A stretch of 45,105 nucleotides of DNA from positions 1 to 45,105 of the forward strand of contig CAMDDX010000015.1 in the NCBI GenBank assembly GCA_945893075.1, written 5' to 3'. Origin of the DNA: Planctomyces sp. SH-PL62. GTDB lineage: Bacteria; Planctomycetota; Planctomycetia; Planctomycetales; Planctomycetaceae. Both the position numbers and the translations under genes were made by a program. The notes beneath the pieces were generated by a model that worked only from the letters and a program-made list of their open reading frames with translations, ran no database searches and was not told the origin of the DNA. Positions 5,533-25,113 of the stretch are shown piece after piece. Numbering within the stretch: position 1 is the first letter of the stretch; the number at the start of each line of letters is the position of its first letter.

Positions 5533-6330
5533 ATGCCGATTACCTTGCTGTATCACGATGTCACGCCGATCCAGGCCGAAGACTCCAGCGGATTCGCTGG
5601 CCCGGAAGCGGCACGCTACAAGTTGACGCCGGAGGAATTCGCGCGTCATTTGGCTGCACTGGCTGGCAAAGTCACTCGGTCGCCATTGGCAGCGTCGACG
5701 CCGAATGAACTGCGGTCCGCCCCTCGCGATGCGTGGCTGCTCACGTTTGACGATGGGGGCACCTCGGCAATCACGGAGATCGCCGGTCAACTCGAACGAC
5801 GCGGTTGGCGCGGCTGGTTCTTTGTCTCCACCGACTTCATCGGGACTCCCTCGTTCTGCACGCACAGCCAATTGCGGGAACTGCGAGAGCGCGGCCATGT
5901 GATCGGCAGTCACTCCTGTAGCCACCCCGAACGCATCTCGCGCTGCTCGCCCCGGCAGCTTCTCGACGAGTGGCAGCGGAGTCGCGCGGTGCTTTCAGAG
6001 ATCCTCGGCGAGCCGATCACCACGGCGTCGGTGCCCGGCGGCTTCTACTCCGCCAAGGTCGCTCGCGCGGCGGCCACTGCGGGGATCGAGGTGCTGTTCA
6101 ACTCGGAGCCAACGACCAGACTGTCCGCAGTGGATGGCTGCCTGGTCGTCGGTCGCTACTGCGTTTATCGCGGGATGAGCGACACCGACGCCACCTGTTT
6201 GATCGGTGATCCTCTGCGGCGCTGGCGACAGTCGGCATCTTGGAACGCCAAGAAGATTGCCAAGAAGATTGCCGGACCAGCCTACAAATTACTTCGCCAG
6301 CAACTTCTTCGTCGCGTCTCCGAGACGTGA
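5533..6330 (+). CDS. Polysaccharide deacetylase (NodB-fold)
   Basis: This 265-residue protein carries the NodB homology domain of carbohydrate esterase family 4. Motif 1 is 'LLTFDDGGTSA' (the DD pair gives the catalytic base and a metal ligand) and motif 2 is 'GSHSCSHPERIS' (metal-binding histidines, H-x3-H spacing), followed by 'ASVPGGFYSAKVARAA'. No clear signal peptide is seen, so it may be cytoplasmic or exported by other means. It probably removes acetyl groups from N-acetylated sugars, acting with the preceding formyltransferase. Its stop codon TGA (6328-6330) is the first part of the duplicated regulatory element that follows, showing that the element was joined exactly at the gene end. 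Confidence 0.8.
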   Translation: MPITLLYHDVTPIQAEDSSGFAGPEAARYKLTPEEFARHLAALAGKVTRSPLAASTPNELRSAPRDAWLLTFDDGGTSAITEIAGQLERRGWRGWFFVSTDFIGTPSFCTHSQLRELRERGHVIGSHSCSHPERISRCSPRQLLDEWQRSRAVLSEILGEPITTASVPGGFYSAKVARAAATAGIEVLFNSEPTTRLSAVDGCLVVGRYCVYRGMSDTDATCLIGDPLRRWRQSASWNAKKIAKKIAGPAYKLLRQQLLRRVSET

Positions 6331-6440
6331 CTTCGATTTAATGAATGCTTTTGAACAACACTTTCAATTCGTTGAACCTCAACTGGCCGCGTAGGATTCG
6401 CCGACTTAAAGAGACAAGCGAGCGGCCAGTATGTGCTGGC
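6327..6440 (+). promoter_or_regulatory. NhaR-region regulatory element, copy 2 (upstream of the hpf run)
   Basis: It matches copies at 4342-4456 and 17668-17790: GTGACTTCGATTTAATGAATG, the perfect dyad TTCAA-TTCG-TTGAA at 6363-6376, GCGTAGGATTCGCCGA and AAGCGAGCGGCCAGTA. It starts exactly at the deacetylase stop codon and lies about 170 bp before hpf. It probably carries the operator and promoter of the hpf-csrA-ABC-sbtA run. Confidence 0.6.
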
Positions 6441-6520
6441 GAGCGATGACGCAGAGCGTTGGCCCGCGAGCACGGCATCGACATCGGGGTGAAATGCCCA
6501 CGCTCGCCGGTCTTGAAGGT

Positions 6521-6562
6521 GGTTGCGGGGCTGCCGTGCGTGCGAGCGCGGCAGCCCGCAAC
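6521..6562. repeat. Hairpin in the hpf leader
   Basis: The arms GGTTGCGGGGCTGCCG (6521-6536) and CGGCAGCCCGCAACC (6549-6562 and one base on) form a strong stem. The homologous leader at 17790-17898 lacks it, so it looks like a later insertion into the 5' untranslated region of hpf. Confidence 0.75.
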
Positions 6563-6611
6563 CCCGACTCAGAGACCGAACGGCATTCCAGAACTCGCGG
6601 GAGACGCAGCC

Positions 6612-6977
6612 ATGCTGATCGACGTGCTGGATCGGGATGTGACCTTGGATGAGGGGACTCTGGAGTGGATCGAGCGGCGGTTGCAGTTTGCTCTGGGGCG
6701 GTTTGCCGGACGGATTCGGCGAGTGCAAGTGGTCCTCAGCGACATCAATGGCCATCGCGGCGGCATGGACAAGCAATGCCGGCTGCGCATCACGTTGATC
6801 TCCAAAGAGGAGATCTTCGTTGAGGACGTGGACACAACCGTTGAGGCGGTGACGGCGAACGCGGTCGAGCGAGCGGCCCGGTCGGTGGCGCGCTGGCTGG
6901 AACGGCAACGTGACTTCGGAACTGCCTCTGAGAGTGCTTTGTTGGTGCCGATGTCGCGATTCACCGAATCGGCTTAA
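6612..6977 (+). CDS. Ribosome hibernation promoting factor-like protein (HPF/RaiA)
   Basis: The 121-residue protein matches the short HPF/YfiA (sigma-54 modulation) fold. It begins 'MLIDVLDRDVTLDE', has the typical helix 'LEWIERRLQFALGRF', then strands 'IRRVQVVLSDINGHRGGMDK' and 'CRLRITLI', and a second helix 'VTANAVERAARSVARWLER'. HPF proteins bind the small ribosomal subunit and silence ribosomes in starvation. The length agrees with short HPF; there is no long C-terminal dimerisation domain. It opens a plus-strand run with BON and csrA genes, so the front of the run looks like a growth-state module. A decayed copy of its first codons lies at 17899. Confidence 0.75.
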   Translation: MLIDVLDRDVTLDEGTLEWIERRLQFALGRFAGRIRRVQVVLSDINGHRGGMDKQCRLRITLISKEEIFVEDVDTTVEAVTANAVERAARSVARWLERQRDFGTASESALLVPMSRFTESA

Positions 6978-7005
6978 CGCGGCACGAACGGTGGGGAGGT
7001 GTTTG

Positions 7006-7302: not shown

Positions 7303-7373
7303 GACAGCCCGACAATCGTTGCGGCACAAGTCGCCGCCTCCAGTCAGAACCACGAACCATCAAGGAGAATCAC

Positions 7374-7601
7374 ATGGTGCTCATCAGTCGCAAGGAAGCG
7401 GACACGGTTCAGATTGGCGGTGATGTGTCCGTGACAGTGATCCGATCTTCGAACGGCGAAGTGCTGCTGGGCATCGCAGCCCCGGAAGGGACACGCATCC
7501 TGCGCAGCGAACTGGTGGAGCCAAGCCCTCTCGCAGAGCAAGATTTGATTTCGCTGCTCTTTCCGACCGACGAGGAACGTCTGCGGCGAAAAGTCAGTTG
7601 A
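7374..7601 (+). CDS. csrA: CsrA-like RNA-binding regulator
   Basis: The 75-residue protein is of CsrA size and pattern: 'MVLISRKEADTVQIGGDVSV', then 'VLLGIAAPEGTRILRSEL', aligned with the five-strand CsrA core in which the first and last strands carry the RNA-contacting arginines (R6 in 'SRKE' and R in 'ILRSEL'). AAGGAG at 7362-7367 lies 7 bases from ATG 7374, so this start is well supported. CsrA dimers bind GGA motifs near ribosome-binding sites and switch carbon metabolism and biofilm formation. Its targets here are unknown. It stands between the BON gene and the ABC exporter and may be co-transcribed from the promoter at 6327. Confidence 0.85.
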   Translation: MVLISRKEADTVQIGGDVSVTVIRSSNGEVLLGIAAPEGTRILRSELVEPSPLAEQDLISLLFPTDEERLRRKVS

Positions 7602-7674: not shown

Positions 7675-7743
7675 GTAGCCACGCTTGCCAGAGCGTGGGT
7701 TTACAGGCTTGTACTTGCCCACGCTCTGGCGAGCGTGGCTACA
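7675..7743. repeat. Palindromic repeat, family 1, copy 2
   Basis: The arms GCCACGCTTGCCAGAGCG (from 7678) and CGCTCTGGCGAGCGTGGC (to 7739) resemble the repeats at 631-693 and 20130-20195. It lies between csrA and the ABC exporter gene. A GTG inside its right arm could be mistaken for the ABC start. Confidence 0.85.
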
Positions 7744-7761
7744 CCAGCGAATGAATCGACG

Positions 7762-9918
7762 ATGACTCAGCCGGAGACCAACGGACCCGCACCGCAGACG
7801 ACGACAACGGCGGTGGATGGATTTGGAGAGATAGGAGCCGAAGCCATTCGGCTGTTGTGCGGGGAACGGCGTCGAGTGGACGTCTCCGCCATTCGCCGCT
7901 CGTTGGCCGATGCGATGCTGGCGTGGCCGGGGACGGCGGAAGAGCGGTGGTGGAAGTGGCTGGTCGAGACGGGTCGCGGGCTGAGCTACGCCGTGCGAGT
8001 GATTGATGCGTCTCCGCGCGAAGTCTTCGAGTTGCTGCGGCACGGCGTCGAGGCGGTCACGATGGGCGATGGCAGCGAACCGAAGTTGCTCGTGCTGACG
8101 GGGGCCAAGCGGCAGAAGTTTCGCTTGTGCGCGTTGCCGGGCGAGCCGGCGGGGCGATGGGTTTCGCAGCGGGAGTTGTCGGCGTTGCTCGGCGGGACGA
8201 AGGGGACGGTGGAGCGGCGGTGGGTCATTCTCGATCCCATGTCGGATGACATGCCGCTGGCGGCGGACGGACACGGCGAGCACGCGCATCCGACGCCCTG
8301 GTCGCGACTGTGGGAGTTCATGCGACCGGAACGGTCGGACTTGTGGATCGTGCTGATCTTCGCGTTATTCACCGGGATGCTGACACTGGCGACGCCGATT
8401 GCCGTCGAAGCGCTGGTCAACACGGTCTCATTCGGGACGTTGCTGCAACCGCTGATCGTGTTGTCGATCATCTTGCTGACGTTTCTGGGCTTCGCGGCGG
8501 CGTTGCGATTTTTGCAGCGGTTCGTGGTGGAGCTGATTCAGCGGCGACTGTTTGCTCGCGTCGTCGGGCGGTTGGCGTGGCAGTTGCCGAGGGTGCGATT
8601 GGATGCGGCTCATCAATTCACGCCGGAGTTGCTCAATCGGTTCTTCGATGTCGTGTTGATGCAGAAGATGGTGGCGCAGTTGGCACTGGATGGGTTGAGG
8701 GTCGTGCTGACGGTCGGCCTGGGCATGATCGTGCTCGCGTTTTATCACCCGTGGCTGCTGGCGTTCGACGTGGTGTTGCTGGTGATGCTGGCGTTCAATG
8801 TGTTCGTGCTGAGTCGCGGAGCGATGCGGACCAGCATCGCGGAATCGGCGAGCAAGTACGCGGTGGCCGGTTGGCTCGAAAACATCGCTCTTTGCCGAAC
8901 GACCTTCAAGGCGGTCGGCGCGGCGGAGTTCGCACTGACCCGTGCCGACCGGCTGACGACCGATTACCTCGTGGCGCGGGAAGCGCACTACCGCGTGATC
9001 ATCCGGCACATCCTCCTGGGCCTGGCGCTCGAAGCGATCGCCAGCGCGGTGCTGCTGGGACTGGGGGGGTATCTGGTGATTCAAGGGCAGATGACACTCG
9101 GCCAGCTTGTCGCGGCGGAGCTGATTGTGACGTTGATCGTGGCGGCGATCGCGAAGCTGGAGAAGCAATTCGAGAGCTTCTACGACCTGCTGACGTCGAT
9201 GGACAAGTTGGGGCACTTGTTCGATCTGCCGGTCGAGCCGTCGTCGGGCTTGATCCACGTCGGACACAGCGGCGCGGCACGCTTGACCTTGCGCGGCGTC
9301 GGCTTTTTGCACGGCGACGGCTCTGTGGGGCTGAACGAGGTCTCGCTCGAGGTGGCTCCCGGCGAAGTGGTCGCAATTACGGGGCCGACCGGTTGCGGCA
9401 AGAGCACGCTGCTGGATTTGTTGTTCCGACTGCGCGAGCCGTCGTCGGGGCGAATCTCGCTGGACGATCTCGATCTGGCCGATCTGCGCCCGGACGTGCT
9501 ACGGCAAATCGTCTCGCTCGTTCGCGGCATCGAGGTGCTCGACGGAACGCTGGCCGAGAACGTGCATCTGAATCGCCCGGAGATCACGACGACGAACGTT
9601 CGCGACGCGTTGCGGCGAATGGAGCTGACGGACGATGCGCAAAGCGACCACCGTCGCCTGAATTGGAGCCTCGACACGCATCTCGCCCACGACGGCAAGC
9701 CCTTATCGGAAAGTCAGGCGCGGCGATTGATGTTGGCTCGCGCCATCGTTGGCCAGCCACGCTTGTTGTTGATCGACGGCTTGCTCGATGCCCTGCCCGA
9801 CGAGGACGGCGAACGGTTGTTGGAAGAATTGAAACGCACACGCGGCGATTGTTCGGTGATATTGGCGACGGGTCGCAAATCGCTCATGGCGAAATGCGAC
9901 CGGATTTGTGAATTGTGA
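7762..9918 (+). CDS. Type I secretion-like ABC exporter with degenerate ATPase
   Basis: The product has 718 residues from ATG 7762. The frame extends to a GTG at 7735, but that lies in a palindromic repeat. A ~190-residue soluble N-terminus precedes about six membrane helices (from 'LWIVLIFALFTGMLTLATP') and a nucleotide-binding domain. Walker A is intact (GPTGCGKST, residues 541-549) and the signature reads 'LSESQ'. Walker B is LLLIDG: glycine (673) replaces the catalytic glutamate. The switch histidine is also lost ('LATGRKS', Gly 704). ATP binding may persist, but hydrolysis is probably weak or absent unless supplied otherwise. An HlyD gene follows and a TolC gene lies 6 kb on, so a trans-envelope pump is likely. 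The substrate is unknown; no peptidase motif is seen. Confidence 0.8.
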   Translation: MTQPETNGPAPQTTTTAVDGFGEIGAEAIRLLCGERRRVDVSAIRRSLADAMLAWPGTAEERWWKWLVETGRGLSYAVRVIDASPREVFELLRHGVEAVTMGDGSEPKLLVLTGAKRQKFRLCALPGEPAGRWVSQRELSALLGGTKGTVERRWVILDPMSDDMPLAADGHGEHAHPTPWSRLWEFMRPERSDLWIVLIFALFTGMLTLATPIAVEALVNTVSFGTLLQPLIVLSIILLTFLGFAAALRFLQRFVVELIQRRLFARVVGRLAWQLPRVRLDAAHQFTPELLNRFFDVVLMQKMVAQLALDGLRVVLTVGLGMIVLAFYHPWLLAFDVVLLVMLAFNVFVLSRGAMRTSIAESASKYAVAGWLENIALCRTTFKAVGAAEFALTRADRLTTDYLVAREAHYRVIIRHILLGLALEAIASAVLLGLGGYLVIQGQMTLGQLVAAELIVTLIVAAIAKLEKQFESFYDLLTSMDKLGHLFDLPVEPSSGLIHVGHSGAARLTLRGVGFLHGDGSVGLNEVSLEVAPGEVVAITGPTGCGKSTLLDLLFRLREPSSGRISLDDLDLADLRPDVLRQIVSLVRGIEVLDGTLAENVHLNRPEITTTNVRDALRRMELTDDAQSDHRRLNWSLDTHLAHDGKPLSESQARRLMLARAIVGQPRLLLIDGLLDALPDEDGERLLEELKRTRGDCSVILATGRKSLMAKCDRICEL

Positions 9919-9957: not shown

Positions 9958-10057
9958 GTAGGGTGGGACCAGCGGCGCTTCGCCGCGCCGGCCCACCAGG
10001 AATCAAAGCGATTGAAGATGGTGGGCCGGCGCTCGAAGCGAGCTTGTCCCACCCTAC
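9958..10057. repeat. Long palindrome between ABC and HlyD genes
   Basis: The left arm 9958-9998 (GTAGGGTGGGACCAGCGGCG...) pairs with 10019-10057 (...GTCCCACCCTAC). Beside it, 9939-9958 holds half of another repeat type (GAGCCGaGGGGCGTCAG, like the element inside tolC). An open reading frame runs through the right arm and makes the HlyD frame look longer than it is. Confidence 0.8.
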
Positions 10058-10095
10058 CTGAGTACCGCTCACTTGCGATGCGACAGGAGCTTGCG

Positions 10096-11439
10096 ATGTT
10101 GAACACGCTGACGGGAGTTGAATTCGAGCACGTTGGATTTCCGGCGTTGCGGTTGGCGAAGTCGTCACGTCTCGCGCGTCGCGTCGCGCGGGTGTTGTTG
10201 GTGATGTTGGTGGGAGCAATCATGGCGTTGGGTTTTGCTCCGTGGCAGCAGTCGCTTAGCGGGACCGGGCGGGTCGTCGCCTACGCTCCGTTGCAACGCC
10301 AGCAAACGATTGAGGCTCCGATTTCCGGCCGCATCGTCCGCTGGGGAGATCAGGTGTTTGATGGCGTTCGCGTCGAGCAAGGTCATTTCATTTTGGAGAT
10401 TCAGGACATCGACCCGAACTTTCAGCTTCGTCAGCAAGACCAGCTCGCGGCGACGGTGCGCGAACTCGACGCGAACAAGATCGTCGTGCTGGCGTATGAA
10501 GCTCAGGTCGCGGCGTTCGAGACGGTGAAGGTGGAATCGGTCGCGGCGGCGGACGAGTACGTGAAGGTCGCCGGCGAGAAGCTACGGATCGAGGAGCGCA
10601 ACCTCGACGCCGAACAGGCGGGCGAACTGCAACAGCGGCTGGATTACGAACGGCAGAAGGAACTCGCCAAAGACGGGCTGACCTCCACGCTCAAGGTGCA
10701 AGAGGCCGAACGCAAATGGAAAGAGTTGATCGCGAAGGTCGATAAGGCCGAGGCGTACATCCGCGCCGCCAGGAATGAACTGGCCGCCAAACGAAACGAG
10801 CGGACGTCCAAAGAGCGCGAGGCGCAGGCGAAAATCGACTCGTCGAAAGCGGTCCTGCAAAAGGCGCTCGGCGATGTCGCCAAGCTCGACAAACAAATCT
10901 CCGAGTTGCAGGTGAAGATCACTCAGCAGCAAAGCCAGGTCGTGAAAGCTCCGCGCGACGGCACCATCATGCACCTGATGGCTCACTCCGGCGGTGAGAT
11001 GGTCAAGCAAGGTGAGCCGTTGTTCGTGCTGATCCCCGATGCCGAAGACCGCGCGGCCGAGATTTGGGTCAGTGGCAACGACGCTCCGCTGATCAGCGTC
11101 GGTCGCCAGGTGCGACTGCAATTCGAGGGCTGGCCCGCCGTGCAATTCACCGGCTGGCCGAGCGTCGCGGTCGGCACCTTCGGCGGCACGGTCTCGAACG
11201 TCGATGCCGCCGCCGGCAACAGCAAGAACCAGTTCCGAGTCCTCGTCGTCCCCGATGTGGACTCGCCGCCGTGGCCCAGCACCAAGTTCCTGCGCCAAGG
11301 CACACGAGCCAACGGCTGGGTGCTGCTCGACCAAGTCGGCCTGGGCTACGAAGCCTGGCGCAGACTCAATGGATTCCCTCCGTCGATTGCCTTCCCGGAA
11401 CCTTCGAGCGACGGAAGCAAGAAGGATAAAGGCAAGTAG
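10096..11439 (+). CDS. HlyD-family membrane fusion protein
   Basis: This 447-residue periplasmic adaptor starts at ATG 10096, preceded by AGGAG (10085-10089); the longer frame runs through a palindrome. One membrane anchor (~residues 34-53, 'VLLVMLVGAIMALGFAPW') is followed by a biotinyl-lipoyl half-motif ('QQTIEAPISGRIVRWGDQV'). A long coiled-coil hairpin covers ~110-300 (rich in K/E/A/Q), then the second lipoyl half ('QVVKAPRDGTIMHLMAHSGG') and a beta-barrel. The 'FLRQGTRANGWVLLD' end is typical of the HlyD family. It should bridge the ABC exporter and an outer-membrane channel. Only 45 bases separate it from sbtA, suggesting shared transcription. Confidence 0.85.
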   Translation: MLNTLTGVEFEHVGFPALRLAKSSRLARRVARVLLVMLVGAIMALGFAPWQQSLSGTGRVVAYAPLQRQQTIEAPISGRIVRWGDQVFDGVRVEQGHFILEIQDIDPNFQLRQQDQLAATVRELDANKIVVLAYEAQVAAFETVKVESVAAADEYVKVAGEKLRIEERNLDAEQAGELQQRLDYERQKELAKDGLTSTLKVQEAERKWKELIAKVDKAEAYIRAARNELAAKRNERTSKEREAQAKIDSSKAVLQKALGDVAKLDKQISELQVKITQQQSQVVKAPRDGTIMHLMAHSGGEMVKQGEPLFVLIPDAEDRAAEIWVSGNDAPLISVGRQVRLQFEGWPAVQFTGWPSVAVGTFGGTVSNVDAAAGNSKNQFRVLVVPDVDSPPWPSTKFLRQGTRANGWVLLDQVGLGYEAWRRLNGFPPSIAFPEPSSDGSKKDKGK

Positions 11440-11484
11440 CTCGGCAAAATGTCCGCAGCGCGGACGAAACCGAAAGGAGATTCG

Positions 11485-12480
11485 ATGACTTCCGATTTGA
11501 TGCAGGCGATGCAGGCCAATTTATTGTCGCCAGCAGTTTTGTTTTTCTTACTCGGCGTGTTCGCGACGTTGTGCAAGAGTGACCTGAAGTTTCCGGAGCC
11601 GTTGTATCTGGGGCTGACGATCTATTTGCTCACAGCGATTGGCTTCAAGGGTGGCGTGTCGATTGCCCGAGCGGGCGTTTCGGTGGTGTGGTGGCCGGCG
11701 CTGATGGCGATCGCGCTCAGCGCGCTGATTCCGTTGTGGAGCTATCCCGTGTTGCGGTGGCTCGGTCGCTTGTCGCCGGTCGATTCGGCGGCTGTTTCGG
11801 CGCACTACGGTTCGGTCAATGCGGTGACATTTATCGCGGCCACGAACTTTCTGAAGTCCGTTGGCCAGCCGTATGAAGAATTCGCCTCGGCGTTTCTCGC
11901 GGTGATGGAGGCTCCGGCGATCGTCATTGGCGTCGTGCTAGGCAAACTCGCGACGCAGAAGCCGGGCGAGTCGTTCGGGCCGACACTCAAGGTCGCATTC
12001 CACGAAGCGTTGCTCGGTCGCAGCGTGATCCTGCTGGTCGGGGGCCTGCTGATTGGCTACCTGTCTGGCGAGCGGGGCTATGAGGCCACTTCCGGATTCT
12101 TCGTCGCTCCCTTTCAGGGAGTGCTGGCGTTGTTCCTGTTGGAGATGGGACTGGTCGCGGCTCGGCGGTTCGGCGATCTCCGCAAGGTGGGCCTGTTTCT
12201 GATCGTGTTCGGGATCGCGATGCCGATCCTGAATGGTCTGATTGGAGTCGCATCGGGACAACTCGCGGGCCTGAGCCTGGGAGGCGCGATGCTGACGGGA
12301 ATGCTGGCGGCGAGCGCCTCGTTCATCGCCGCGCCGGCGGCCATTCGCCTGTCGCTCCCCGAAGCGAATCCAACGCTGTATCTGACCTCGGCCTTGGCAA
12401 TCACGTTCCCGTTTAACATCACTCTGGGATTGCCGATCTGTTTTGAATTCGCCAAATGGATGTACGGAGGCTCGCTATGA
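11485..12480 (+). CDS. sbtA: SbtA, sodium-dependent bicarbonate symporter
   Basis: This 331-residue inner-membrane protein has about ten hydrophobic segments and the SbtA pattern: 'LSPAVLFFLLGVFATLCKSD', 'PLYLGLTIYLLTAIGFKGG', 'VDSAAVSAHYGSVNAVTFIA' and 'LFLLEMGLVAARRFGDLRKVG'. In cyanobacteria SbtA is a high-affinity Na+/HCO3- symporter. AAAGGAG at 11473-11479 supports ATG 11485. Its stop overlaps the sbtB start (ATGA), the linkage seen for cyanobacterial sbtAB. The surrounding genes (carbonic anhydrase, two SulP transporters, larB) also handle inorganic carbon or use CO2. I am confident of the family; bicarbonate as the substrate here follows from the family and the SbtB partner. Confidence 0.9.
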   Translation: MTSDLMQAMQANLLSPAVLFFLLGVFATLCKSDLKFPEPLYLGLTIYLLTAIGFKGGVSIARAGVSVVWWPALMAIALSALIPLWSYPVLRWLGRLSPVDSAAVSAHYGSVNAVTFIAATNFLKSVGQPYEEFASAFLAVMEAPAIVIGVVLGKLATQKPGESFGPTLKVAFHEALLGRSVILLVGGLLIGYLSGERGYEATSGFFVAPFQGVLALFLLEMGLVAARRFGDLRKVGLFLIVFGIAMPILNGLIGVASGQLAGLSLGGAMLTGMLAASASFIAAPAAIRLSLPEANPTLYLTSALAITFPFNITLGLPICFEFAKWMYGGSL

Positions 12481-12779
12481 AACTGCATTCGATGAAGCTC
12501 GTGACGATCGTCTGCGAGGCGTTGGCCCGCACGTCCGTCACCGAACTGCTGCACGAAATCGGCGCTCACGGCTACACGCTGTTCCCGGTCGAAGGGGTCG
12601 GTGCGCAAGGCTCGCGCGTGGCCGACATCGAAGAGTTTGCCAACATCCAAATCGAAGTCGTGCTGCCAACGGAGCCTTCTCTGCAACTGTTGGAACGGCT
12701 GGAACGCGACTTCTTTTCCCGCTTCGCCATGATCGCGTATTCGACCGACATCGAAGTCATCCGCAGCGCGAAGTTTTGA
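12477..12779 (+). CDS. sbtB: SbtB-like PII-family regulator of SbtA
   Basis: This is a 100-residue protein whose ATG overlaps the sbtA stop, with GGAGG at 12466-12470. The fold is PII-like: 'KLVTIVCEALARTSVTELL', 'GAHGYTLFPVEGVGAQGSR' (the shortened T-loop region with the G-x-GSR element of SbtB), then 'NIQIEVVLPTEPSLQLLERL' and 'AMIAYSTDIEVIRS'. Cyanobacterial SbtB trimers bind adenine nucleotides including cAMP and plug SbtA. This protein ends at 'IRSAKF' and lacks the C-terminal cysteine-bracketed R-loop (CGPEGC) known from several cyanobacterial SbtB proteins, so redox control through that loop is not expected. Confidence 0.85.
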   Translation: MKLHSMKLVTIVCEALARTSVTELLHEIGAHGYTLFPVEGVGAQGSRVADIEEFANIQIEVVLPTEPSLQLLERLERDFFSRFAMIAYSTDIEVIRSAKF

Positions 12780-12804: not shown

Positions 12805-13602
12805 GTGCCAGGGATGTTTCCAGAACAGTTACGAGATTTATTACAGGCGGTGCGTTGCGGGCAAATGGAGGTCGAGTTGGCCTTTAGCGAACTGGTGGAC
12901 TTGCCGTTCGCCGATCTGGGCTATGCGACGGTGGACCATCATCGCTCGCTGCGGCAGGGAGTTCCCGAAGTGATCTTCGGACAGGGAAAAACCGCCGAGC
13001 AGATCGTCGGCATCGCGCGCGAATTGGCGCGAAAGCAGCAGAACGTGTTGATCACCCGAATGGACGCGACACAGGCGGAGTTCGTGCAGCGGGAACTGCC
13101 CGATCTCCGTTACGTTCCGTTGGCTCGGGTGGCCACGCTGGAATTTAGCGTCCCGCTGGCGATCGCGGGTTCGGTCGCGTTGGTCTGCGCGGGAACCGCC
13201 GATCTGCCGGTGGCCGAGGAATGCGCCGAGACGTTGCGCATGCTTGGCATCGGTTGCGAACGGCTGACCGACGTGGGCGTGGCCGGACTGCATCGCTTGC
13301 TCGCCAAACGAAAACGGTTCGACCGGGTTTCGTTGGCCATCGTGGTCGCCGGAATGGAAGGAGCTTTGCCGAGCGTCGTGGGGGGCTTGGCGTCGATTCC
13401 GGTGATCGCCGTGCCCACGTCCGTGGGCTATGGTGCCGGCTCCGGCGGTTGGGCGGCCTTGCTGGGAATGCTGACCAGTTGCGCCGCCGGAATCACCGTC
13501 TGCAATATCGACAACGGATTTGGTGCCGCGATGGCCGCCTATCGAATTCTGGCCTCGCGCCCCAAGCCCCCCGCGTCGGCGTTAGTTGAACGCACGAGTT
13601 AA
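12805..13602 (+). CDS. larB: LarB-family protein (nickel-pincer cofactor carboxylase type), copy 1
   Basis: The 265-residue protein has the LarB/PurE-like layout. An N-terminal region (~1-90, 'LPFADLGYATVDHHRSLRQG', 'VIFGQGKTAEQIVGIARE') precedes an AIR-carboxylase-like Rossmann domain with 'CAGTADLPVAEECAETLRM', 'VVAGMEGALPSVVGGL', 'PTSVGYGAGSGG' and 'NIDNGFGAA'. LarB carboxylates nicotinic acid adenine dinucleotide with CO2 in nickel-pincer cofactor synthesis. GTG 12805 follows GAAGGGA; it starts 25 bases after sbtB, so it is probably in the sbtAB operon. No larC, larE or larA is nearby, so the cofactor role is unproven here. Its TAA overlaps the stop of the convergent pyrC. Confidence 0.85.
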   Translation: MPGMFPEQLRDLLQAVRCGQMEVELAFSELVDLPFADLGYATVDHHRSLRQGVPEVIFGQGKTAEQIVGIARELARKQQNVLITRMDATQAEFVQRELPDLRYVPLARVATLEFSVPLAIAGSVALVCAGTADLPVAEECAETLRMLGIGCERLTDVGVAGLHRLLAKRKRFDRVSLAIVVAGMEGALPSVVGGLASIPVIAVPTSVGYGAGSGGWAALLGMLTSCAAGITVCNIDNGFGAAMAAYRILASRPKPPASALVERTS

Positions 13603-14636: not shown

Positions 14637-14650
14637 CACTGATCCCTCCC

Positions 14651-14712
14651 GTAGCCGAAGTCGTGAGACTTCGGTTTTTCCCATGTCACCGAAGTCTCAC
14701 GACCTCGTCTAC
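14651..14712. repeat. Palindrome in the pyrC/DUF6671 gap
   Basis: GTAGCCGAAGTCGTGAGACT at the left pairs with the right arm ending CGTCTAC, with inner self-complementary CCGAAGTC/GACTTCGG. A short relic of the same family (GTCGCCGAAGTCGTGAGGTTC) is at 22316-22336. It immediately precedes the ribosome-binding site of pyrC, so it lies in the 5' leader if the two minus-strand genes are co-transcribed. Confidence 0.75.
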
Positions 14713-14721
14713 AGGCGGCTC

Positions 14722-15624: not shown

Positions 15625-15652
15625 GACTGCCAAAACCTCTAGTAGGGTACTC

Positions 15653-15790
15653 TCAGAAATTCCGCAGCTCCTCGGGCTTACCCACCTTGTCCAAGCGAGT
15701 CAGCCGTTGGTCATCAAAGCGGCAGAGGATTTCGATCTCTAGGCTGATGGTCAAGTCAAAGTGGGAAAGCGAAGTAGACCGTGCCCAACA
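15653..15790 (-). pseudogene. Possible C-terminal gene remnant
   Basis: The minus-strand frame reads '...LTISLEIEILCRFDDQRL' then 'TRLDKVGKPEELRNF' and a stop. It looks more protein-like than a chance frame and has no matching start before the tolC gene. It may be the tail of a gene cut off when tolC arrived. I do not recognise the family. Weak evidence. Confidence 0.25.
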
Positions 15791-15855
15791 TGCCGGTCGT
15801 AGCTCATTGGCAAACCCTGCGGGTGCCGATCTTTGTCCTACGGGATGAAGCGCGG

Positions 15856-17790: not shown

Positions 17791-17898
17791 TACGAGCTGC
17801 CGAGGTGATGACGCACCATGGGGGTTTCGGTGTAATCGCTCCCGCTCGCCGGGCACACCAGTCACAGTCGCCCTTCGTTCAACGACGCGAGAAGCATC

Positions 17899-18070: not shown

Positions 18071-18613
18071 ATGCCGTTAAGTCACGTCCAATTTGAGAAT
18101 GATTGTTCTTATCCGCCTCCGCGCGGCACGGTGTTGCTCCTCACCTGTATGGACCTGCGCCTGCTGGATGAGATCATCCAGTTCATGAATCATGACAACC
18201 TGGCCAACAGGTACGACCACGTTGTCTTTGCGGGAGCGGCGTTGGGGGCATTGGGGGCACCCTGTGCGAAATCGGATTTCTCACATTGGAAGAAAACCTT
18301 TTTCGATCACCTCGGTGCCGCGGTCGAACTGCATCGCGTCGAAGATGTCTACATTCTCGAACACCGCAACTGTGGCGCATACCACACCGTGTTCGGGGCG
18401 TGCCGCAATTATGGTGATTCGGAAAAGGAACAAGCGGCCGAAGAAGCCTGTCACCTCAAGTACGCGCAGTTGCTCCAACAGGAAATTGAAGACTGGGCCA
18501 AGCAGCACAACATCAAGTTGCGTGTGACGAAGTTTCTCATGGGCCTTCGCGGTCAGGTTTCGTTGCTATCCGGGCCGAAAGCAAAGACTCAATCCAAGAA
18601 GTCGGCGAAGTAG
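18071..18613 (+). CDS. Beta-class carbonic anhydrase-like protein
   Basis: The 180-residue protein opens at ATG 18071, with AGGAG at 18058-18062. It keeps the beta-carbonic anhydrase zinc site: C26-x-D28-x-R30 in 'LTCMDLRLLDEI', and H98-x-x-C101 in 'ILEHRNCGAYHTVFG'. The Asp-Arg pair that gates the zinc is present. It is shorter than typical beta enzymes and lacks some helices; otherwise the fold ('YDHVVFAGAALGA') agrees. It should interconvert CO2 and HCO3- in the cytoplasm. A SulP transporter starts 108 bases downstream; carbonic anhydrases are known as fusions or neighbours of SulP bicarbonate transporters. Activity is likely but not shown. Confidence 0.8.
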   Translation: MPLSHVQFENDCSYPPPRGTVLLLTCMDLRLLDEIIQFMNHDNLANRYDHVVFAGAALGALGAPCAKSDFSHWKKTFFDHLGAAVELHRVEDVYILEHRNCGAYHTVFGACRNYGDSEKEQAAEEACHLKYAQLLQQEIEDWAKQHNIKLRVTKFLMGLRGQVSLLSGPKAKTQSKKSAK

Positions 18614-18721: not shown

Positions 18722-20110
18722 ATGTGGGATCGGCTGAAACTCTTTTTCACTCCGTTCGATGCGCGCTATGAAGACATGACCCGCGCCAACTGGAGGTCGG
18801 TGGTCTGGCGCGACGTCAGCGCGGCCATCATTGTGGCCATGATGGCCATTCCGATGGCGATGGGCTTCGCGATGGCCGCCGGACTGCGGCCGGAACACGG
18901 CATTGTGGCTGGTGCTGTCGCGGGCATCGTGGGCGGGTTGTTCGGCGGCTCCAAATACAATGTCTATGGGCCGGTCGCGGCCCTGATCCCGATGATCGCC
19001 GGGCTGATGGCGAAGTATGCCACTCCCGAAGATCCTTACGCCGGGCACCACTTCCTGGTGCTGATCTGCGTTTGCGCGGGACCGATGCTGCTGTTGATGG
19101 CACTGCTCGGCTGGGGGAAGGTAGGCAATCTGGTGCCGCACTCCATCGTGGTCGGCTTCAGCGTCGGCATTGCGGTCGTCATCGGACTGACGCAACTGGG
19201 CGAAGTCCTCGGTTTGAAGGAAGACGTCCGCGGAAGCTCCCTGGCCATGGTGCAGGGCATTTGGAGGAACCTGCACGAAACCCACTGGGCGGCGTTGTTA
19301 CTGGCCGGGCTGACTTTCTGGATGACCCGCTACTTGCTGAAGGTCTCGATTTTCATCCCCGCGCCGCTGATCGCCATCGGCGTGACAACGTTGTTGTCCG
19401 CGACTCTGTTGGCGAACTCCGGTCTCTCGACGGTCAAGTCGGAGTACGGGGCCATTCCGACACACTTTCTGGCATTGTCCACGCCGGCACTCCCCGCGTC
19501 GGATCTCGCGACGTTGGGGACGTTGGTGTTCTACTCGTTGGCCTTTGCCTTCGTCTGCGGGTTCGAGAGCCTGTTGTGCGCGCGCATGGCGGATCGGCAG
19601 GCCGAGAACCGTGGAACGCCGTATCACCCGGACAAAGAATTTTGGGGACAAGGGCTACTCTTGCTGCTGGTGCCGCTGCTCAACGGCATGCCGCTGTCGG
19701 GTGCTCTGGCCCGCACCTCGACCAAGATCCAAGTGGGCGGGATGACGCCGCTGTGCGAACTCTTGAAGTGCGTTTTCAAACTGCTGCTGGTTTACTTCCT
19801 GGCGAGCTTTCTGGAGCTGATCCCGATGGCGTGCGTCGGTGGCATCCTGCTGTGGGTGGCCTTCAACATGGTCAAGCCGGTAGAGATCCGAAAGATCTGG
19901 AACCTCAATCGGTTCCATGCGTTTCTGATGGTCTACACCTGCGTCATGGTGATTGCGTTCGGTTTCTTGACGGGCGTGCTTTCGGCCACGTTGATTTATG
20001 GCGTGCTCTGCAAATTCCTGGACAAGCCCCCGTCAGGCTTGACCGAATCCGATGAGTTGCGGCCGACAGTGATCCCGTTGGAGCAAGATGCGCGGGCTCT
20101 TTCGGCCTAG
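18722..20110 (+). CDS. SulP-family anion transporter without STAS domain
   Basis: This 462-residue membrane protein of the SLC26/SulP family has the family signatures 'RDVSAAIIVAMMAIPMAMGF', 'YNVYGPVAALIPMI' and 'GQGLLLLLVPLLNGMPLSGA'. About ten to twelve hydrophobic segments end near residue 435, and only ~25 residues follow, so the cytoplasmic STAS domain usual for SulP is missing. Position next to a beta-carbonic anhydrase suggests bicarbonate, as in BicA, but sulfate cannot be excluded from sequence. A palindrome separates it from the stress-protein gene. Confidence 0.85.
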   Translation: MWDRLKLFFTPFDARYEDMTRANWRSVVWRDVSAAIIVAMMAIPMAMGFAMAAGLRPEHGIVAGAVAGIVGGLFGGSKYNVYGPVAALIPMIAGLMAKYATPEDPYAGHHFLVLICVCAGPMLLLMALLGWGKVGNLVPHSIVVGFSVGIAVVIGLTQLGEVLGLKEDVRGSSLAMVQGIWRNLHETHWAALLLAGLTFWMTRYLLKVSIFIPAPLIAIGVTTLLSATLLANSGLSTVKSEYGAIPTHFLALSTPALPASDLATLGTLVFYSLAFAFVCGFESLLCARMADRQAENRGTPYHPDKEFWGQGLLLLLVPLLNGMPLSGALARTSTKIQVGGMTPLCELLKCVFKLLLVYFLASFLELIPMACVGGILLWVAFNMVKPVEIRKIWNLNRFHAFLMVYTCVMVIAFGFLTGVLSATLIYGVLCKFLDKPPSGLTESDELRPTVIPLEQDARALSA

Positions 20111-20209: not shown

Positions 20210-21031
20210 ATGATCAAACGCATTCTCGTCGGTTTGGCGGGCACTCCTTATACGCCGGTCGCAATCCAGCGCGCCTTGAAGATTGCGCAGAATCATGAAG
20301 CCGAAGTCACGGGCGTAACGCTGATCGACAAGTCCAGCCTGCTCGACGACCGAGGCGAAACGGCGTGGCAAGTCTTGGAGGGCAGACAACGCTTGACGGA
20401 TGCCGAAAACCGCATCGAACGATCCATCGCCGACTTTCGCGCGGCTTGCGATGAAATGGGAGTGGAACAGTGGCGTCTCGTGCAGGAAACCGAGGCACCG
20501 TTTACCAAACTGATTGAGCTGGCCCGTTACCACGATCTGATGGTGTTCGGGCTGAAGAGCATTTTTGAAAACGACTTCCTGTGCCGGGATCCGGAAGGAT
20601 TGCTGGTCCGCATCGTGGCCGCCGGCGTGCGTCCCTTGATTGCGGTCACGGACAAGTATCGCGCGATCCATCGCGTTCTCATCGCCTACAGTGGTTCGAT
20701 GGAATCCGCGAAGGCGATGAAGCGGTTCGTGCAACTGCGGCTGTTCCCGGAGGCTCAATTGAAGATCGTCACCTGCGAGAAATTCGAAGAGGATGGTCAG
20801 CGCCTGCTCAAAGACGCCGCCGACTACTGCCGCGCCCACGGTTTCTCAGTCGAGTGCCAGATCAGTCCCGATTCTCCGAAGACGTTCCTGCTGGAAGAGG
20901 CGCGTGCCTGGGAGGCCGACCTGATCGTTATGGGGAACAGCGCTCGGAGCGTGCTGATGCGGAAGATTCTGGGCGATACCGTTCTGGCGACGCTCCGTCA
21001 CACGCCGATTCCGCTGTTTCTCGCACAATAA
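20210..21031 (+). CDS. Tandem universal stress protein (UspA family)
   Basis: The 273-residue protein has two Usp-type domains: residues ~1-145 ('MIKRILVGLAGTPYTPVAIQ', degenerate) and ~150-273 ('HRVLIAYSGSMESAKAMKRF'). The second ends in 'DLIVMGNSARSVLMRKILGD', close to the Usp nucleotide-binding G-x2-G-x9-G(S/T) motif though with substitutions, then 'ATLRHTPIPLFL'. Usp proteins bind ATP or AMP and respond to starvation and energy stress. Placed between a SulP transporter and larB, it might sense energy state for transport control, but this is only inferred. Confidence 0.8.
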   Translation: MIKRILVGLAGTPYTPVAIQRALKIAQNHEAEVTGVTLIDKSSLLDDRGETAWQVLEGRQRLTDAENRIERSIADFRAACDEMGVEQWRLVQETEAPFTKLIELARYHDLMVFGLKSIFENDFLCRDPEGLLVRIVAAGVRPLIAVTDKYRAIHRVLIAYSGSMESAKAMKRFVQLRLFPEAQLKIVTCEKFEEDGQRLLKDAADYCRAHGFSVECQISPDSPKTFLLEEARAWEADLIVMGNSARSVLMRKILGDTVLATLRHTPIPLFLAQ

Positions 21032-21069
21032 GGGTTGATCGACAGGGCGAAAGTCTTGCGAACCGCGCC

Positions 21070-21437
21070 ATGCCACTGACCGAACGATTGACACTCACGA
21101 AACCGGACGATTGGCACCTGCATGTGCGCGATGCGGAACTGTTGCGACGGGTTGTGCCCGATAGCGCTCGGCGTTTCGCGCGGGCGATCATCATGCCCAA
21201 TCTGCGGCCGCCGATCACCACCACCGACCTGGCTCGCCAGTATCGCGAGCGGATCCTCGCCGCGGTCCCTGGCGGTCTGAACTTCCAGCCGCTGATGACG
21301 CTGTTTCTGACTGACGAGACATCTCCGGCCGAGATCGCCAAGGCCAAGGCCAGCGGGATGTGGGTGACGATTCCGTGATCCCGTTTCGCGCGGGTGAAAC
21401 CGTCGCTTGGCAATTGGCGGGAGCGGAATCGAAATGA
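21070..21437 (+). pseudogene. pyrC pseudogene (N-terminus joined to C-terminus)
   Basis: ATG 21070 starts a dihydroorotase frame, '[20 protein letters not shown]', intact to about residue 96 ('AEIAKAKASG'). The sequence then jumps to the pyrC C-terminus in another frame ('GDDSVIPFRAGETVAWQLAG' then ESK and TGA at 21435-21437). About 230 codons, including the carboxylated lysine and most metal ligands, are gone. The original TGA overlaps the larB start (ATGA), showing an ancestral pyrC-larB operon. Its sequence is closer to the fragment at 24922 than to the intact pyrC at 13599. Confidence 0.85.
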
Positions 21438-22297
21438 CCACCAAGACACCGATGAGCGACGATCCGCAGGAGGATCACACCACCAAGTTGCGGGCCATGT
21501 TGCACGCCTTGCAGGTGGGCGAGATTGACGTGAACCATGTGCTCGGTGAGCTAACCGACCTGCCGTTCGCTGACTTGGGTTACGCGACCGTGGACCATCA
21601 CCGGGTTCTGCGGCAAGGCGTAGCGGAGGTGATTTTCGGCTCCGGGAAGACCGCCGAACAAGTGGTGGGGATCGCGCGCGAACTCATTCGCAAAGGCCAG
21701 AACTTGTTGGCCACGCGCATTGATGCCGTGCAGGCGGATTCGATTCTCCAGCAAATTGAGGCCGCGCGGTACATGCCCGCGGCGCGCGTGGTCACCATCG
21801 AGCAGTTTCCCGTAACAATGCGGCCCGTCGGTGCGGTCGTGCTGGTCTGCGCGGGAACCGCGGACCTCCCCGTCGCCGAGGAATGCGCTGAGTCGCTGCG
21901 AATGTTTGGTGTGCCTTTCGAGCGGTTGTACGACGTCGGAGTCGCGGGACTGCATCGCCTGTTGGCCAAGCGAGCGGCCTTCGACCGCGCGGCGGTGGCC
22001 ATCGTCGTGGCCGGAATGGAAGGAGCGCTCCCCAGCGTCGTGGGTGGTTTGGTGTCGATTCCCGTGATTGCCGTCCCCACCTCCGTCGGTTACGGGGCCG
22101 GAGCCGGAGGCTTCGCCGCGCTGTTCGGGATGCTGACCAGTTGCGCCGCGGGGGTAACCGTCTGCAACATCGACAATGGTTTCGGTGCCGCCTTCGCGGC
22201 GCTACGAATCCTGAATTCCGTTTCGGATTTCACAGCGCAACACAAGTCCGCCACCGGCGCGGAACCTGGCCGCGCCGGCCAGGCGGAAGCGACGTAA
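21434..22297 (+). CDS. larB: LarB-family protein, copy 2
   Basis: A 287-residue paralogue of the LarB at 12805, with the same blocks: 'LPFADLGYATVDHHRVLRQG', 'VIFGSGKTAEQVVGIARE', 'CAGTADLPVAEECAESLRM', 'VVAGMEGALPSVVGGLVS' and 'NIDNGFGAAFAALRIL'. It has a longer, polar N-terminus and a ~20-residue C-terminal tail. ATG 21434 overlaps the relic pyrC stop. The motif-rich carboxylase domain is intact, so it is probably active. Two LarB copies, each next to bicarbonate transport genes and pyrC sequences, suggest a duplicated unit. Whether both serve nickel-pincer synthesis is not known; no larC or larE is in the window. Confidence 0.85.
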   Translation: MTTKTPMSDDPQEDHTTKLRAMLHALQVGEIDVNHVLGELTDLPFADLGYATVDHHRVLRQGVAEVIFGSGKTAEQVVGIARELIRKGQNLLATRIDAVQADSILQQIEAARYMPAARVVTIEQFPVTMRPVGAVVLVCAGTADLPVAEECAESLRMFGVPFERLYDVGVAGLHRLLAKRAAFDRAAVAIVVAGMEGALPSVVGGLVSIPVIAVPTSVGYGAGAGGFAALFGMLTSCAAGVTVCNIDNGFGAAFAALRILNSVSDFTAQHKSATGAEPGRAGQAEAT

Positions 22298-22977: not shown

Positions 22978-23152
22978 CCTGGAGTGCGGTGGCTCGACAC
23001 CCCCCTCCATTCGCTTGAAATAACGACATTCAATGTCCCAATAACCAATAACCATCGTCACGATAGCCGGCTGAGTGACTGCCGCTTTCTTGGCGATCAA
23101 CGTCCTCATTCCAACTGAAGGGAGGGCTGCGTCGAGCCGCAGCACTCCAGGG
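22978..23152. repeat. Widely spaced inverted repeat before the SulP-STAS gene
   Basis: CCCTGGAGTGCGGTGGCTCG (from 22978) pairs with the arm 23131-23152 (GTCGAGCCGCAGCACTCCAG...), with about 130 bases between them. It is probably a REP-type element that has been split by, or surrounds, inserted DNA. It lies ~50 bp before the SulP-STAS start, so it is in the promoter or leader region. Confidence 0.7.
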
Positions 23153-23202
23153 CGGTCGGAACAGCGTGTTTCTGAATTCGAGATACCGGAAGGGGCACAA
23201 TC

Positions 23203-24873
23203 ATGGAGACGAGCAACCGGTCCTCGAACAAACAGGATTTGTCGGCGAACCTGAAACAAGACGGCTTGGCGTCGATCGTAGTTTTTCTGGTGGCGTTGCC
23301 GCTGTGCATGGGTGTCGCCATTGCGTCGGGCGTGCCGACGGAGAAGGCGGCCGCGGTGGGAATCATCACGGGAATTGTCGGGGGCCTCGTGGTCGGATTC
23401 CTGGCCGGCAGTCCCCTGCAAGTCAGCGGACCGGCCGCGGGCCTCGCCGTCATCGTGGGCCAGTTGATTCAGGAACATGGGTTTGAACGGCTCGGCCTGA
23501 TCGTGATGATCGCCGGCGGCATTCAATTTCTCGCCGGCCTGCTGCGCGCGGGGCAATGGTTTCGAGCAGTCTCGCCGGCCGTGATTCAAGGCATGTTGGC
23601 CGGCATCGGCATCCTGATTCTTGCCGCGCAGTTTCATGTGATGGTGGATGACAAGCCGCCGGGCACGGGCAAAGAGTTCGGCGGAATCATGAATCTGGCG
23701 ACTCTGCCGCAGGCCGTGTGGAAAGGACTGTCCGAGACGGAACATCGTCCGGCGGCGATCCTGGGAGTGATCACTATCCTCGCCATCATTCTCTGGACGG
23801 CGTTCGTTCCCAAGAAACTAAAATTCCTTCCCGCGCCGCTGTTTGGAGTGGTCGTCGCCACAGCCGCTGCCGCGATCTTTCAAGCGGACGCGAATTTCAT
23901 CTCCGTCCCGAACAACCTGCTGGATGCGATGCAATTGCCGACGCTCGGCGATCTCGGCAGCGCCTTTGCCGGCCCCAGCTTGATCGAAAACGTGGGTCCG
24001 ATATTGCTCGCAGGCTTGGCACTGGCGTTCGTCGCCAGCGCGGAGTCGCTGCTCACCGCCACGGCCGTGGACTCGATGCAGCAGCACGCGCCGCGAACCA
24101 AGTATGATCGCGAACTGATGGCCCAAGGGACCGGCAATCTGCTCTGCGGATTGGTCGGGGCGCTGCCGATGACCGGCGTCATTGTGCGGAGTTCCGCGAA
24201 CGTCCTGGCCGGTGGCCGGACACGGACCTCGACGATCATGCACGGCGCTTGGCTGCTGGTGTTCGCCGTGCTGTTGCCGCAGGCACTGCGGTTGATTCCC
24301 ATTGCCAGCCTCGCGGCGGTGCTGGTCTTTACGGGATACAAACTGATGAACCCGGCAGCCGTGCGCAAGCTGATGGTGTATGGCCAAGGAGAAGTCGCGA
24401 TCTATTGGGCAACTTTGGTCACAGTCGTCGTGGTCGATCTCCTGACCGGCATCGTCGTGGGGATTGGACTGGCCCTGAGCAAGCTGCTTTACACGTTCTC
24501 CCACTTCATTGTCAGGCTGGAGAATGACCCGCAACGCACTCGGAGCGTGCTGCACTTGGAAGGTGCTGCGACCTTCATGGGATTGCCCAAACTGGCCTCC
24601 GTGCTGGAACACGTTCCGCCCAGCACGGAACTGCATGTGCATTTTGACGAGCTGAGCTACATCGATCACGCTTGCTTGGATCTGCTCATGAATTGGGAGA
24701 AGCAATACGAAGCCACCGGCGGCAGTCTGGTCATCGACTGGGAGAGCCTCACCGCCAAGTTTCGGCTTCCTGGCAATCACATTGGAAAGAACGGTCAAGT
24801 CGCCGCGACCACAGTCAGCGATGAGCATCAACGGGCGGTGAAGCCGTTGGAAACCACTGGCTCACAGGCTTGA
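23203..24873 (+). CDS. SulP-family transporter with STAS domain (BicA-like)
   Basis: The 556-residue protein has a SulP membrane domain (residues ~20-430) with 'LASIVVFLVALPLCMGVAIA', 'LQVSGPAAGLAVIV', 'ASAESLLTATAVDSM' and 'GLVGALPMTGVIVRSSANVL'. A C-terminal STAS domain (~445-520) contains 'STELHVHFDELSYIDHACLD'. The 'GxLxxxLP'-rich N-terminus and 'RTKYDRELMAQGTGNLLCGL' are of the group that includes Na+-dependent bicarbonate transporters (BicA) and carbonic-anhydrase-linked SulP. It differs strongly from the SulP at 18722, so the two are not recent duplicates. Bicarbonate is the probable substrate from context. A pyrC fragment follows at 24922. Confidence 0.85.
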   Translation: METSNRSSNKQDLSANLKQDGLASIVVFLVALPLCMGVAIASGVPTEKAAAVGIITGIVGGLVVGFLAGSPLQVSGPAAGLAVIVGQLIQEHGFERLGLIVMIAGGIQFLAGLLRAGQWFRAVSPAVIQGMLAGIGILILAAQFHVMVDDKPPGTGKEFGGIMNLATLPQAVWKGLSETEHRPAAILGVITILAIILWTAFVPKKLKFLPAPLFGVVVATAAAAIFQADANFISVPNNLLDAMQLPTLGDLGSAFAGPSLIENVGPILLAGLALAFVASAESLLTATAVDSMQQHAPRTKYDRELMAQGTGNLLCGLVGALPMTGVIVRSSANVLAGGRTRTSTIMHGAWLLVFAVLLPQALRLIPIASLAAVLVFTGYKLMNPAAVRKLMVYGQGEVAIYWATLVTVVVVDLLTGIVVGIGLALSKLLYTFSHFIVRLENDPQRTRSVLHLEGAATFMGLPKLASVLEHVPPSTELHVHFDELSYIDHACLDLLMNWEKQYEATGGSLVIDWESLTAKFRLPGNHIGKNGQVAATTVSDEHQRAVKPLETTGSQA

Positions 24874-24921
24874 GCTGTGCTTTCCGAAGTCCTGCATTCC
24901 ACGATCGAGAACAACCGCGCC

Positions 24922-25113
24922 ATGCCGCCGACCGAATGTTTGACGCTCACGAAACCGGATGATTGGCACCTGCATGTGCGCGATGCGGAACTATTCCGAC
25001 GAGTCGTGCCCGATAGCGCGCGGCGTTTCGCTCGGGCGATCATCATGCCCAATCTGCGGCCAACCGATCACCACCACCGACCTGGCGCGCCAGTAACTTC
25101 CTTACCGAAGTGA
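24922..25113 (+). pseudogene. pyrC fragment (5' end only)
   Basis: ATG 24922 begins '[20 protein letters not shown]', the dihydroorotase N-terminus, close in DNA to the fragment at 21070, including the bases before the ATG (ACCGCGCCATGCC). At about codon 48 an extra base (CGGCCAACCG against CGGCCGCCG) shifts the frame, and homology ends near 25093 (CGCCAGTA). Roughly 290 codons are absent. It is not functional. Confidence 0.85.

Follow-up and report, generated by a model that had tools for sequence, protein, structure and literature searches.

Why would a planctomycete that is presumably a heterotroph carry a predicted bicarbonate transporter together with spare copies of enzymes that depend on CO2? 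The question is raised by contig CAMDDX010000015.1 of Planctomyces sp. SH-PL62 (assembly GCA_945893075.1), of which positions 1 to 45,105 were analysed; this whole stretch is called the window. The first-pass annotation had placed between 6327 and 25113 an inorganic-carbon island with sbtA-sbtB, a beta-carbonic anhydrase (CA), two SulP transporters, two larB genes, an intact pyrC and two pyrC relics, which may supply anabolic carboxylations rather than carbon fixation. We consider it likely that the island is a horizontally acquired low-CO2 kit, which combines bicarbonate uptake with extra CO2-dependent anabolic enzymes. Our broader proposal is more tentative. It holds that mobile low-CO2 islands marked by the gene for DUF6671 occur across phyla and combine inorganic-carbon (Ci) pumps with backup isozymes for CO2- or bicarbonate-using steps, including dihydroorotases in which Glu in place of the carbamate Lys would free pyrimidine synthesis from CO2 there. 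DUF6671 is the key gene of the island and had been overlooked.

In the proposed scheme SbtA, under control of the PII-like SbtB, would import bicarbonate. The extra enzymes would need CO2 or bicarbonate, the two LarB proteins as substrate and the second PyrC for its lysine carbamate. DUF6671 would be a core partner in such islands, and an NhaR-type LysR protein would probably turn them on. Profile scores find sbtA-sbtB, both larB genes, the intact pyrC, its two relics and both SulP genes where they had been noted (Table 1). The sole solved chain matched by the window SbtA is Synechocystis SbtA (7cye, E 9e-32). The sbtB gene overlaps the end of sbtA, and its product belongs to the PII family, with TTHA0516 and SbtB as solved relatives. 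The absence of RuBisCO, previously stated for the neighbourhood, extends to the whole genome of the window (92.9% complete), in which 0 matches were found; a RuBisCO-based CO2-concentrating mechanism with carbon fixation is rejected on this result. There was also no RuBisCO match in the genomes of a congener (G008) and of a further genome with an island (G001).

The foreign origin of the island was assessed in a comparison set of 59 genomes, that of the window included. Class II PyrC (TIGR00856) scores over the cut-off only in the window genome and G008 (2/59). TIGR00857 PyrC does so in 56/59, among them the window genome, whose housekeeping copy lies on contig C400. In a tree the window PyrC pairs with that of G008 (support 100/100) and the pair lies among proteobacterial class II PyrC. 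LarB is over the cut-off in 58/59 genomes, usually as a single gene; the window genome has three, with one match to LarC. The LarB tree contains 22 rows from available loci, a subset of the genomes. Both window LarB proteins group with that of G008 and one from a myxococcal DUF6671 locus (100/100). A long branch separates this clade from the 18 other LarB, among which the third LarB of the window genome groups with its genus. The Cys-bearing end of the alignment, where the Cys is presumably catalytic, is kept in LarB1. DUF6671 itself is present in 4/59 genomes and SbtA in 17/59.

A single G008 contig holds the genes for the ABC exporter, HlyD, SbtA, SbtB, LarB, PyrC, DUF6671 and the outer membrane efflux protein (OEP) at 71-87% protein identity. 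The same contig has a TerC/Alx gene and RaiA-like genes and ends inside the OEP gene. G001 retains SbtA, SbtB, DUF6671 and OEP; another genome (G028) retains the NhaR-type LysR gene, SbtA, OEP and HlyD. Conservation of the neighbourhood in related genomes, the lack of which would have counted against the earlier reading, holds for the SbtA-LarB-PyrC-DUF6671 half in G008. From the other half, the island contigs of G008 and G001 yielded no CA, SulP1, universal stress protein (Usp), LarB2 or SulP2; the search for SulP covered these contigs, and that for CA covered both whole genomes, again with no homologue.

It is important to note that DUF6671 is not restricted to relatives of the window, a possibility ruled out by loci titled from many phyla. 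Many of these loci come from metagenome-assembled genomes (MAGs), and single organism titles may be wrong. A scan of GTDB genomes with two DUF6671 patterns gave at least 586 confirmed stretches, in which one locus may count twice, and the best 80 were analysed as genome loci; the alignment behind the DUF6671 model contains 53 of the 80. If SbtA, DabA or SulP is counted as a Ci pump, a pump is present within the retrieved stretch at 55/80 loci (SbtA 34, DabA 19, SulP 6). Four of the six SulP matches are only 24-27% identical, and those four loci also have SbtA. Within 400 bp of DUF6671 lie 25 SbtA and 15 DabA matches. The SbtA loci are not independent, because many come from Limnohabitans and its kin. 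In the order of Azonexus, which we take to be Burkholderiales, 43 of 399 genomes carry DUF6671, 42 of them over the cut-off; leaving out 2 already in the first set and 4 duplicates gave a further sample of 36 loci. SbtA or DabA is present at 24/36 of these and at 0/39 random contig-start stretches, several of them short, from the same genomes. Among 12 DUF6671-bearing plasmid records, read with a chosen query set, 11 have SbtA (4) or DabA (7). The plasmid SbtA genes are on three Arthrobacter records (two from one strain) and on pSDM007. Methylocystis pGW6_1 has neither pump, and PyrC, IlvD and an acyl-CoA carboxylase lie near its DUF6671.

Some details of these loci are recorded here as observations. 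Two tandem sbtA genes occur in genome G044 (locus L041, 9251-11272). A Methylocystis plasmid (locus L073) has two copies of formylmethanofuran dehydrogenase subunit A near DUF6671 (1410-3047 and 14149-15786), and CysD directly adjoins DUF6671 at loci L077, L080 and L121, without an obvious CO2 link. As for DUF6671, its structure model is confident (predicted local distance difference test, pLDDT, 91.5). The best solved matches of the model are ITPase/Ham1 proteins, with E 2.2e-3, none at 0.001, and a TM-score by target of about 0.42-0.43. Such a fold would suit an enzyme or sensor akin to nucleotide pyrophosphatases, which is suggestive only. A PADLOC scan of DUF6671 gave no match, and a literature search outside subscription journals found no paper naming the family.

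What else gathers around DUF6671? De novo clustering of neighbours at 90 loci (80 genome and 10 plasmid) gave clusters present at four or more loci that include PyrC/TsaC, IlvD, BioA, PurK, PurE, BioD and CysD; LysR, transposase, transporter and other clusters are also among the neighbours. Single representatives of PurK, PurE, BioD, BioA, TsaC, IlvD and CysD each pass a curated model. TsaC, PurK, PurE, BioD and LarB use or handle CO2 or bicarbonate (LarB has CO2 as substrate), and Mur ligases and PyrC have a carbamylated lysine. A carbamylated lysine is also carried by IlvD-family enzymes, according to the part of PMC5770437 used here. Our panel comprised 72 E. coli enzymes, 14 labelled CO2-linked (carB, purK, purE, bioD, tsaC, pyrC, ilvD, accB, accC, accD, murD, murE, murF and folC) and 58 others, and was matched at a low threshold (28% identity, 25% of the query). 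At the 80 loci the counts were ilvD 9, tsaC 7, pyrC 7, purK 6, purE 6, bioD 6, bioA 6, cysD 4, leuB 3 and murF 2, with ten others once. The CO2-linked enzymes average 3.2 loci versus 0.36 for the others (Mann-Whitney p 5e-5), and 7/14 versus 3/58 occur at two or more loci. This first test was not blind, because the label list was set after some of its genes had been seen. The 36 further loci, scored with the same list, gave tsaC 6, ilvD 5, purK 3, purE 3, pyrC 2, cysD 2 and seven others once, in total 20 CO2-linked and 8 other matches (rank test p 0.0014). By hand count, 15 of the 36 have a CO2-linked enzyme versus 2 of the 39 random stretches. Among the 80 loci, 28 have such a panel enzyme, and 19 of these 28 also have a pump. 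Taken together, the sequence comparisons show the gene content of the island, its foreign origin, its recurrence in many groups and a selective enrichment of some CO2-linked enzymes; from these we infer transport, regulation and a kinetic purpose for the additional copies.

Regarding PyrC, it had been counted among the carboxylations, which is not correct: dihydroorotase carboxylates nothing, and CO2 is used as the active-site lysine carbamate. In the alignment the window PyrC keeps all metal ligands and the Lys (H H K H H D); the aligned Lys of E. coli PyrC is, we assume, the carbamylated one. A CO2-independent window PyrC is ruled out by the kept Lys. The situation is different for the island enzymes of Pollutimonas subterranea (an isolate), Lautropia and Uliginosibacterium (both MAGs), which have Glu at this column, within G-E-A-F-L, and an insertion of one residue. 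These are 3 of the 13 island rows; Glu is found in none of the 7 remaining rows, which include E. coli and one row from a random stretch. The Pollutimonas and Lautropia proteins retain the five remaining metal ligands, while the Uliginosibacterium one is incomplete and on a chimeric contig. The three form one clade in the tree, therefore a single origin is indicated. Because Glu replaces the carbamate Lys and each of the three genomes also has a second PyrC that retains it (two full PyrC are present in Pollutimonas and Lautropia), the Glu form is predicted to be a CO2-independent isozyme. In Acidithiobacillus ferrianus and a Lysobacterales MAG the island PyrC is the only one; in the deposited sequence of Pseudomonas CC6-YY-74 the island copy is split. 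The PyrC matches of the two relics in the window span 21088-21357 and 24940-25062. The relics share 92% identity with one another across 183 bp and 78-80% with the intact gene. In relic 1 the segment 21360-21404 weakly matches a stretch near the pyrC 3' end (80% over 45 bp). Since relic 1 resembles both the 5' portion of pyrC and this near-3' stretch and continues into larB2, a second pyrC probably once lay beside larB2.

Extra copies are also seen with IlvD. Two IlvD over the cut-off, one of them in the island, were found in 4/12 genomes searched (Pseudomonas CC6-YY-74, Pollutimonas, Pseudarthrobacter HLT1-5 and Thiobacillus RG). IlvD from DUF6671 loci falls into five tree groups, with long branches that limit finer joins: Methylocystis/Fuscovulum, Arthrobacter (near the Arthrobacter housekeeping IlvD), Pseudomonas, Thiobacillus/Pollutimonas and a betaproteobacterial group that also contains housekeeping copies. 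Some betaproteobacterial-locus IlvD may not be second copies, because they group with housekeeping ones. A CO2-independent IlvD is rejected, as CDK is kept in 32/32 of the IlvD rows listed.

The CA and the SulP proteins are only putative Ci proteins. The first-pass annotation credited the CA with a full zinc motif, and the residues CxDxR...HxxC can indeed be read from the sequence at 18071-18613, while the Pfam scores are below both cut-offs (Pro_CA 17.1 vs 25.7, Pro_CA_2 23.9 vs 30). Phmmer found no relative among solved structures, the lone-sequence structure model has a pLDDT of only 49, and the gene is matched in 4/59 genomes. Judged from its sequence, the protein is a remote carbonic-anhydrase-like candidate. 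A BicA type had been suggested for SulP and has to be dropped: SulP1 and SulP2 reach 112.1 and 112.5 bits, far under the cut-off of 880 for the BicA model NF050096. The best match of SulP1 to a solved chain is 6ki1 at E 3.4e-21; its title reads low affinity sulfate transporter, and we take it to be BicA. Next to a carbonic anhydrase, a Methylocystis plasmid encodes a 57% homologue of SulP2.

Regulation can be discussed only as a candidate model. The island seems to begin with the NhaR-type LysR gene at 3455-4354, i.e. earlier than 6327. The window LysR shares 42-53% identity with its counterparts at 10 DUF6671 loci, of which one is on plasmid pSDM007 and nine are in genomes (one of these titled Rhodopirellula), and 51% with the LysR beside SbtA in G028. 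Copies of a repeat of about 130 bp, 77-81% identical, precede the LysR gene, the RaiA-like gene and the carbonic-anhydrase gene. The repeat contains a TTCAA-N4-TTGAA-like dyad, and its core pattern occurs 3 times versus 0.00 expected. The repeat may be a shared operator; it is only a candidate because its core was not found on the G008 contig.

Table 1. Genes and elements of the island in the window, with the score or feature on which each assignment is based
Feature	Position	Strand	Evidence
NhaR-type LysR regulator, candidate island regulator	3455..4354	-	NF008284 NhaR 240.9 bits, cut-off 219
Repeat of ~130 bp before LysR gene	4342..4477		more copies at 6320-6453 and 17668-17815
RaiA/HPF-like ribosome hibernation protein	6519..6977	+	PF02482 34 bits, cut-off 23.7
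CsrA-like regulator	7371..7601	+	PF02599 49.8 bits
ABC exporter, type I secretion kind	7735..9918	+	ABC_tran 80.4 bits; 85% identity in G008
HlyD membrane fusion protein	10012..11439	+	PF13437 47.5 bits; 80% identity in G008
SbtA sodium-dependent bicarbonate transporter (predicted)	11449..12480	+	PF05982 372 bits, cut-off 27
SbtB-like PII protein	12456..12779	+	PF00543 64.9 bits for 12486-12779
LarB1, island clade	12805..13602	+	NF033503 282 bits, cut-off 175
PyrC class II dihydroorotase, intact, foreign second copy	13599..14684	-	TIGR00856 460 bits, cut-off 293
DUF6671, marker gene of the island family	14722..15633	-	PF20376 184 bits
Outer membrane efflux protein (OEP)	15781..17526	+	PF02321 107 bits; 71%/73% identity in G008/G001
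Remote beta-carbonic-anhydrase-like protein	18071..18613	+	CxDxR and HxxC; Pro_CA_2 23.9 bits, cut-off 30
SulP1, without STAS	18722..20110	+	PF00916 220.6 bits
Universal stress protein (Usp)	20210..21031	+	PF00582 80.6 bits
pyrC relic 1	21088..21404	+	like pyrC 5' part, then a stretch near the pyrC 3' end
LarB2, island clade	21407..22297	+	NF033503 271 bits, cut-off 175
SulP2 (SulP-STAS transporter)	23203..24873	+	PF00916 196 bits, STAS_2 33.8 bits
pyrC relic 2	24913..25095	+	92% identical to relic 1

A DUF6288/HEAT protein and two sulfatases lie on the flanks of the island (690-3227 and 27162-30272). Downstream of it are self-complementary repeats of 64-88 bp (27088-27152, 28775-28843, 35970-36034, 38403-38489 and 40044-40129).

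Anabolic carboxylations make heterotrophs dependent on bicarbonate, a need that pumps can cover, as stated in the part of PMC9894237 drawn on here. That Ci uptake in the window serves anabolism and not autotrophy, as first suggested, is in line with the lack of RuBisCO matches in the genomes of the window, G001 and G008, the block kept in the congener and the recurrence of islands with CO2-linked enzymes. The suggestion missed DUF6671, the NhaR-type regulator and the horizontal origin, and leaned on a CA and SulPs that remain putative. Several observations weigh against the low-CO2 reading. CarB and acetyl-CoA carboxylase are the two largest bicarbonate users, and carB, accB, accD, murD and folC are at 0/80 loci, accC and murE at 1/80 each. 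BioA (6 loci), CysD (4) and leuB (3) are enriched and are not CO2 users. The CO2-linked labels are based largely on general biochemistry, and the first locus set is also the one that prompted the idea. The 39 random stretches (accB, accC and pyrC once each) also gave p 0.026, therefore the rank test is liberal, and the totals of 20/8 versus 3/3 do not differ significantly (Fisher p 0.36). No pump and no CO2-linked panel enzyme is present at 16/80 loci. The window PyrC and LarB retain their CO2-dependent residues, and pyrC occurs on one Nostoc and one Piscinibacter plasmid record with no Ci island there. RuBisCO was matched in 9 of 23 island genomes checked (one match a short piece) and not in 14, therefore islands occur in both settings.

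Could the island be a response to alkaline, sodium or metal stress, in which Ci uptake is only one component? We find this rather unlikely as the whole explanation. It would account for the NhaR-type regulator, for TerC/Alx on the G008 contig and in plasmid islands, and for RaiA at 6/80 loci and in pSDM007. It would also suit the clusters of P-type ATPases (8/90 loci, e.g. L126 12189-15850; the representative's best model is a calcium one, under the cut-off) and of calcium/sodium antiporters (4/90; one representative, best a calcium model, just under the cut-off) near DUF6671. However, it does not predict PurK, PurE, BioD, TsaC, IlvD, PyrC and LarB together, nor the Lys-to-Glu change in PyrC. 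Because high pH lowers CO2, such stress fits as a trigger of the low-CO2 reading.

It is quite improbable that the neighbourhood is mostly chance, i.e. that islands gather metabolic genes and relics through recombination. The relics and duplications in the window, the plasmid and transposon settings, the absence of carB and most acc genes and the p value of the random stretches are what such gathering would give. On the other hand, most of the enriched enzymes have a CO2 link and turn up again at further loci, IlvD comes from five tree groups, and the core block of eight genes is kept in G008 at 71-87% identity. An equally improbable explanation takes SulP1, SulP2 and the CysD-bearing relatives as signs of sulfate or oxyanion handling with bicarbonate as the exchange anion. 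CysD near DUF6671 at 4/80 loci, two of the four with SulP, and the low BicA scores of both window SulPs agree with it, but the usual partners of DUF6671 are SbtA and DabA, not SulP, and the close kin of SulP2 adjoins a carbonic anhydrase.

If the low-CO2 reading is true, CO2 or bicarbonate would be a nutrient whose shortage in heterotrophs favours transferable islands by selection, much as a shortage of zinc does. DUF6671, which is widespread (at least 586 stretches; 43/399 genomes of one order), would gain a testable physiological home, and a candidate for a natural CO2-independent dihydroorotase would become available for study. A literature search outside subscription journals found no description of islands pairing Ci pumps with such enzymes.

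There are known systems with which the islands can be compared. Zur-regulated zinc-sparing paralogues stand in when a cofactor runs short, and PyrC is one of these backup isozymes; in the islands it would be CO2 or bicarbonate that is in short supply. Island LarB resembles LarB of nickel pincer cofactor synthesis in its family score over the cut-off and in the Cys-bearing end kept in LarB1; it differs in forming a separate clade found with Ci genes, in a genome with a single LarC match. The dissolved inorganic carbon toolkit (SbtA-SbtB, DAB, SulP and CA), as far as covered by the part of PMC10880623 consulted, has the same transporter families and a PII-like partner, whereas the window genome has no RuBisCO match and the island adds DUF6671 and second CO2-dependent enzymes; such islands are partly plasmid-borne. 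Anabolic Ci uptake in E. coli and Cupriavidus necator follows the same physiological logic; in the portion of PMC9894237 cited, it relies on pumps and CA, whereas the islands described here add paralogous enzymes.

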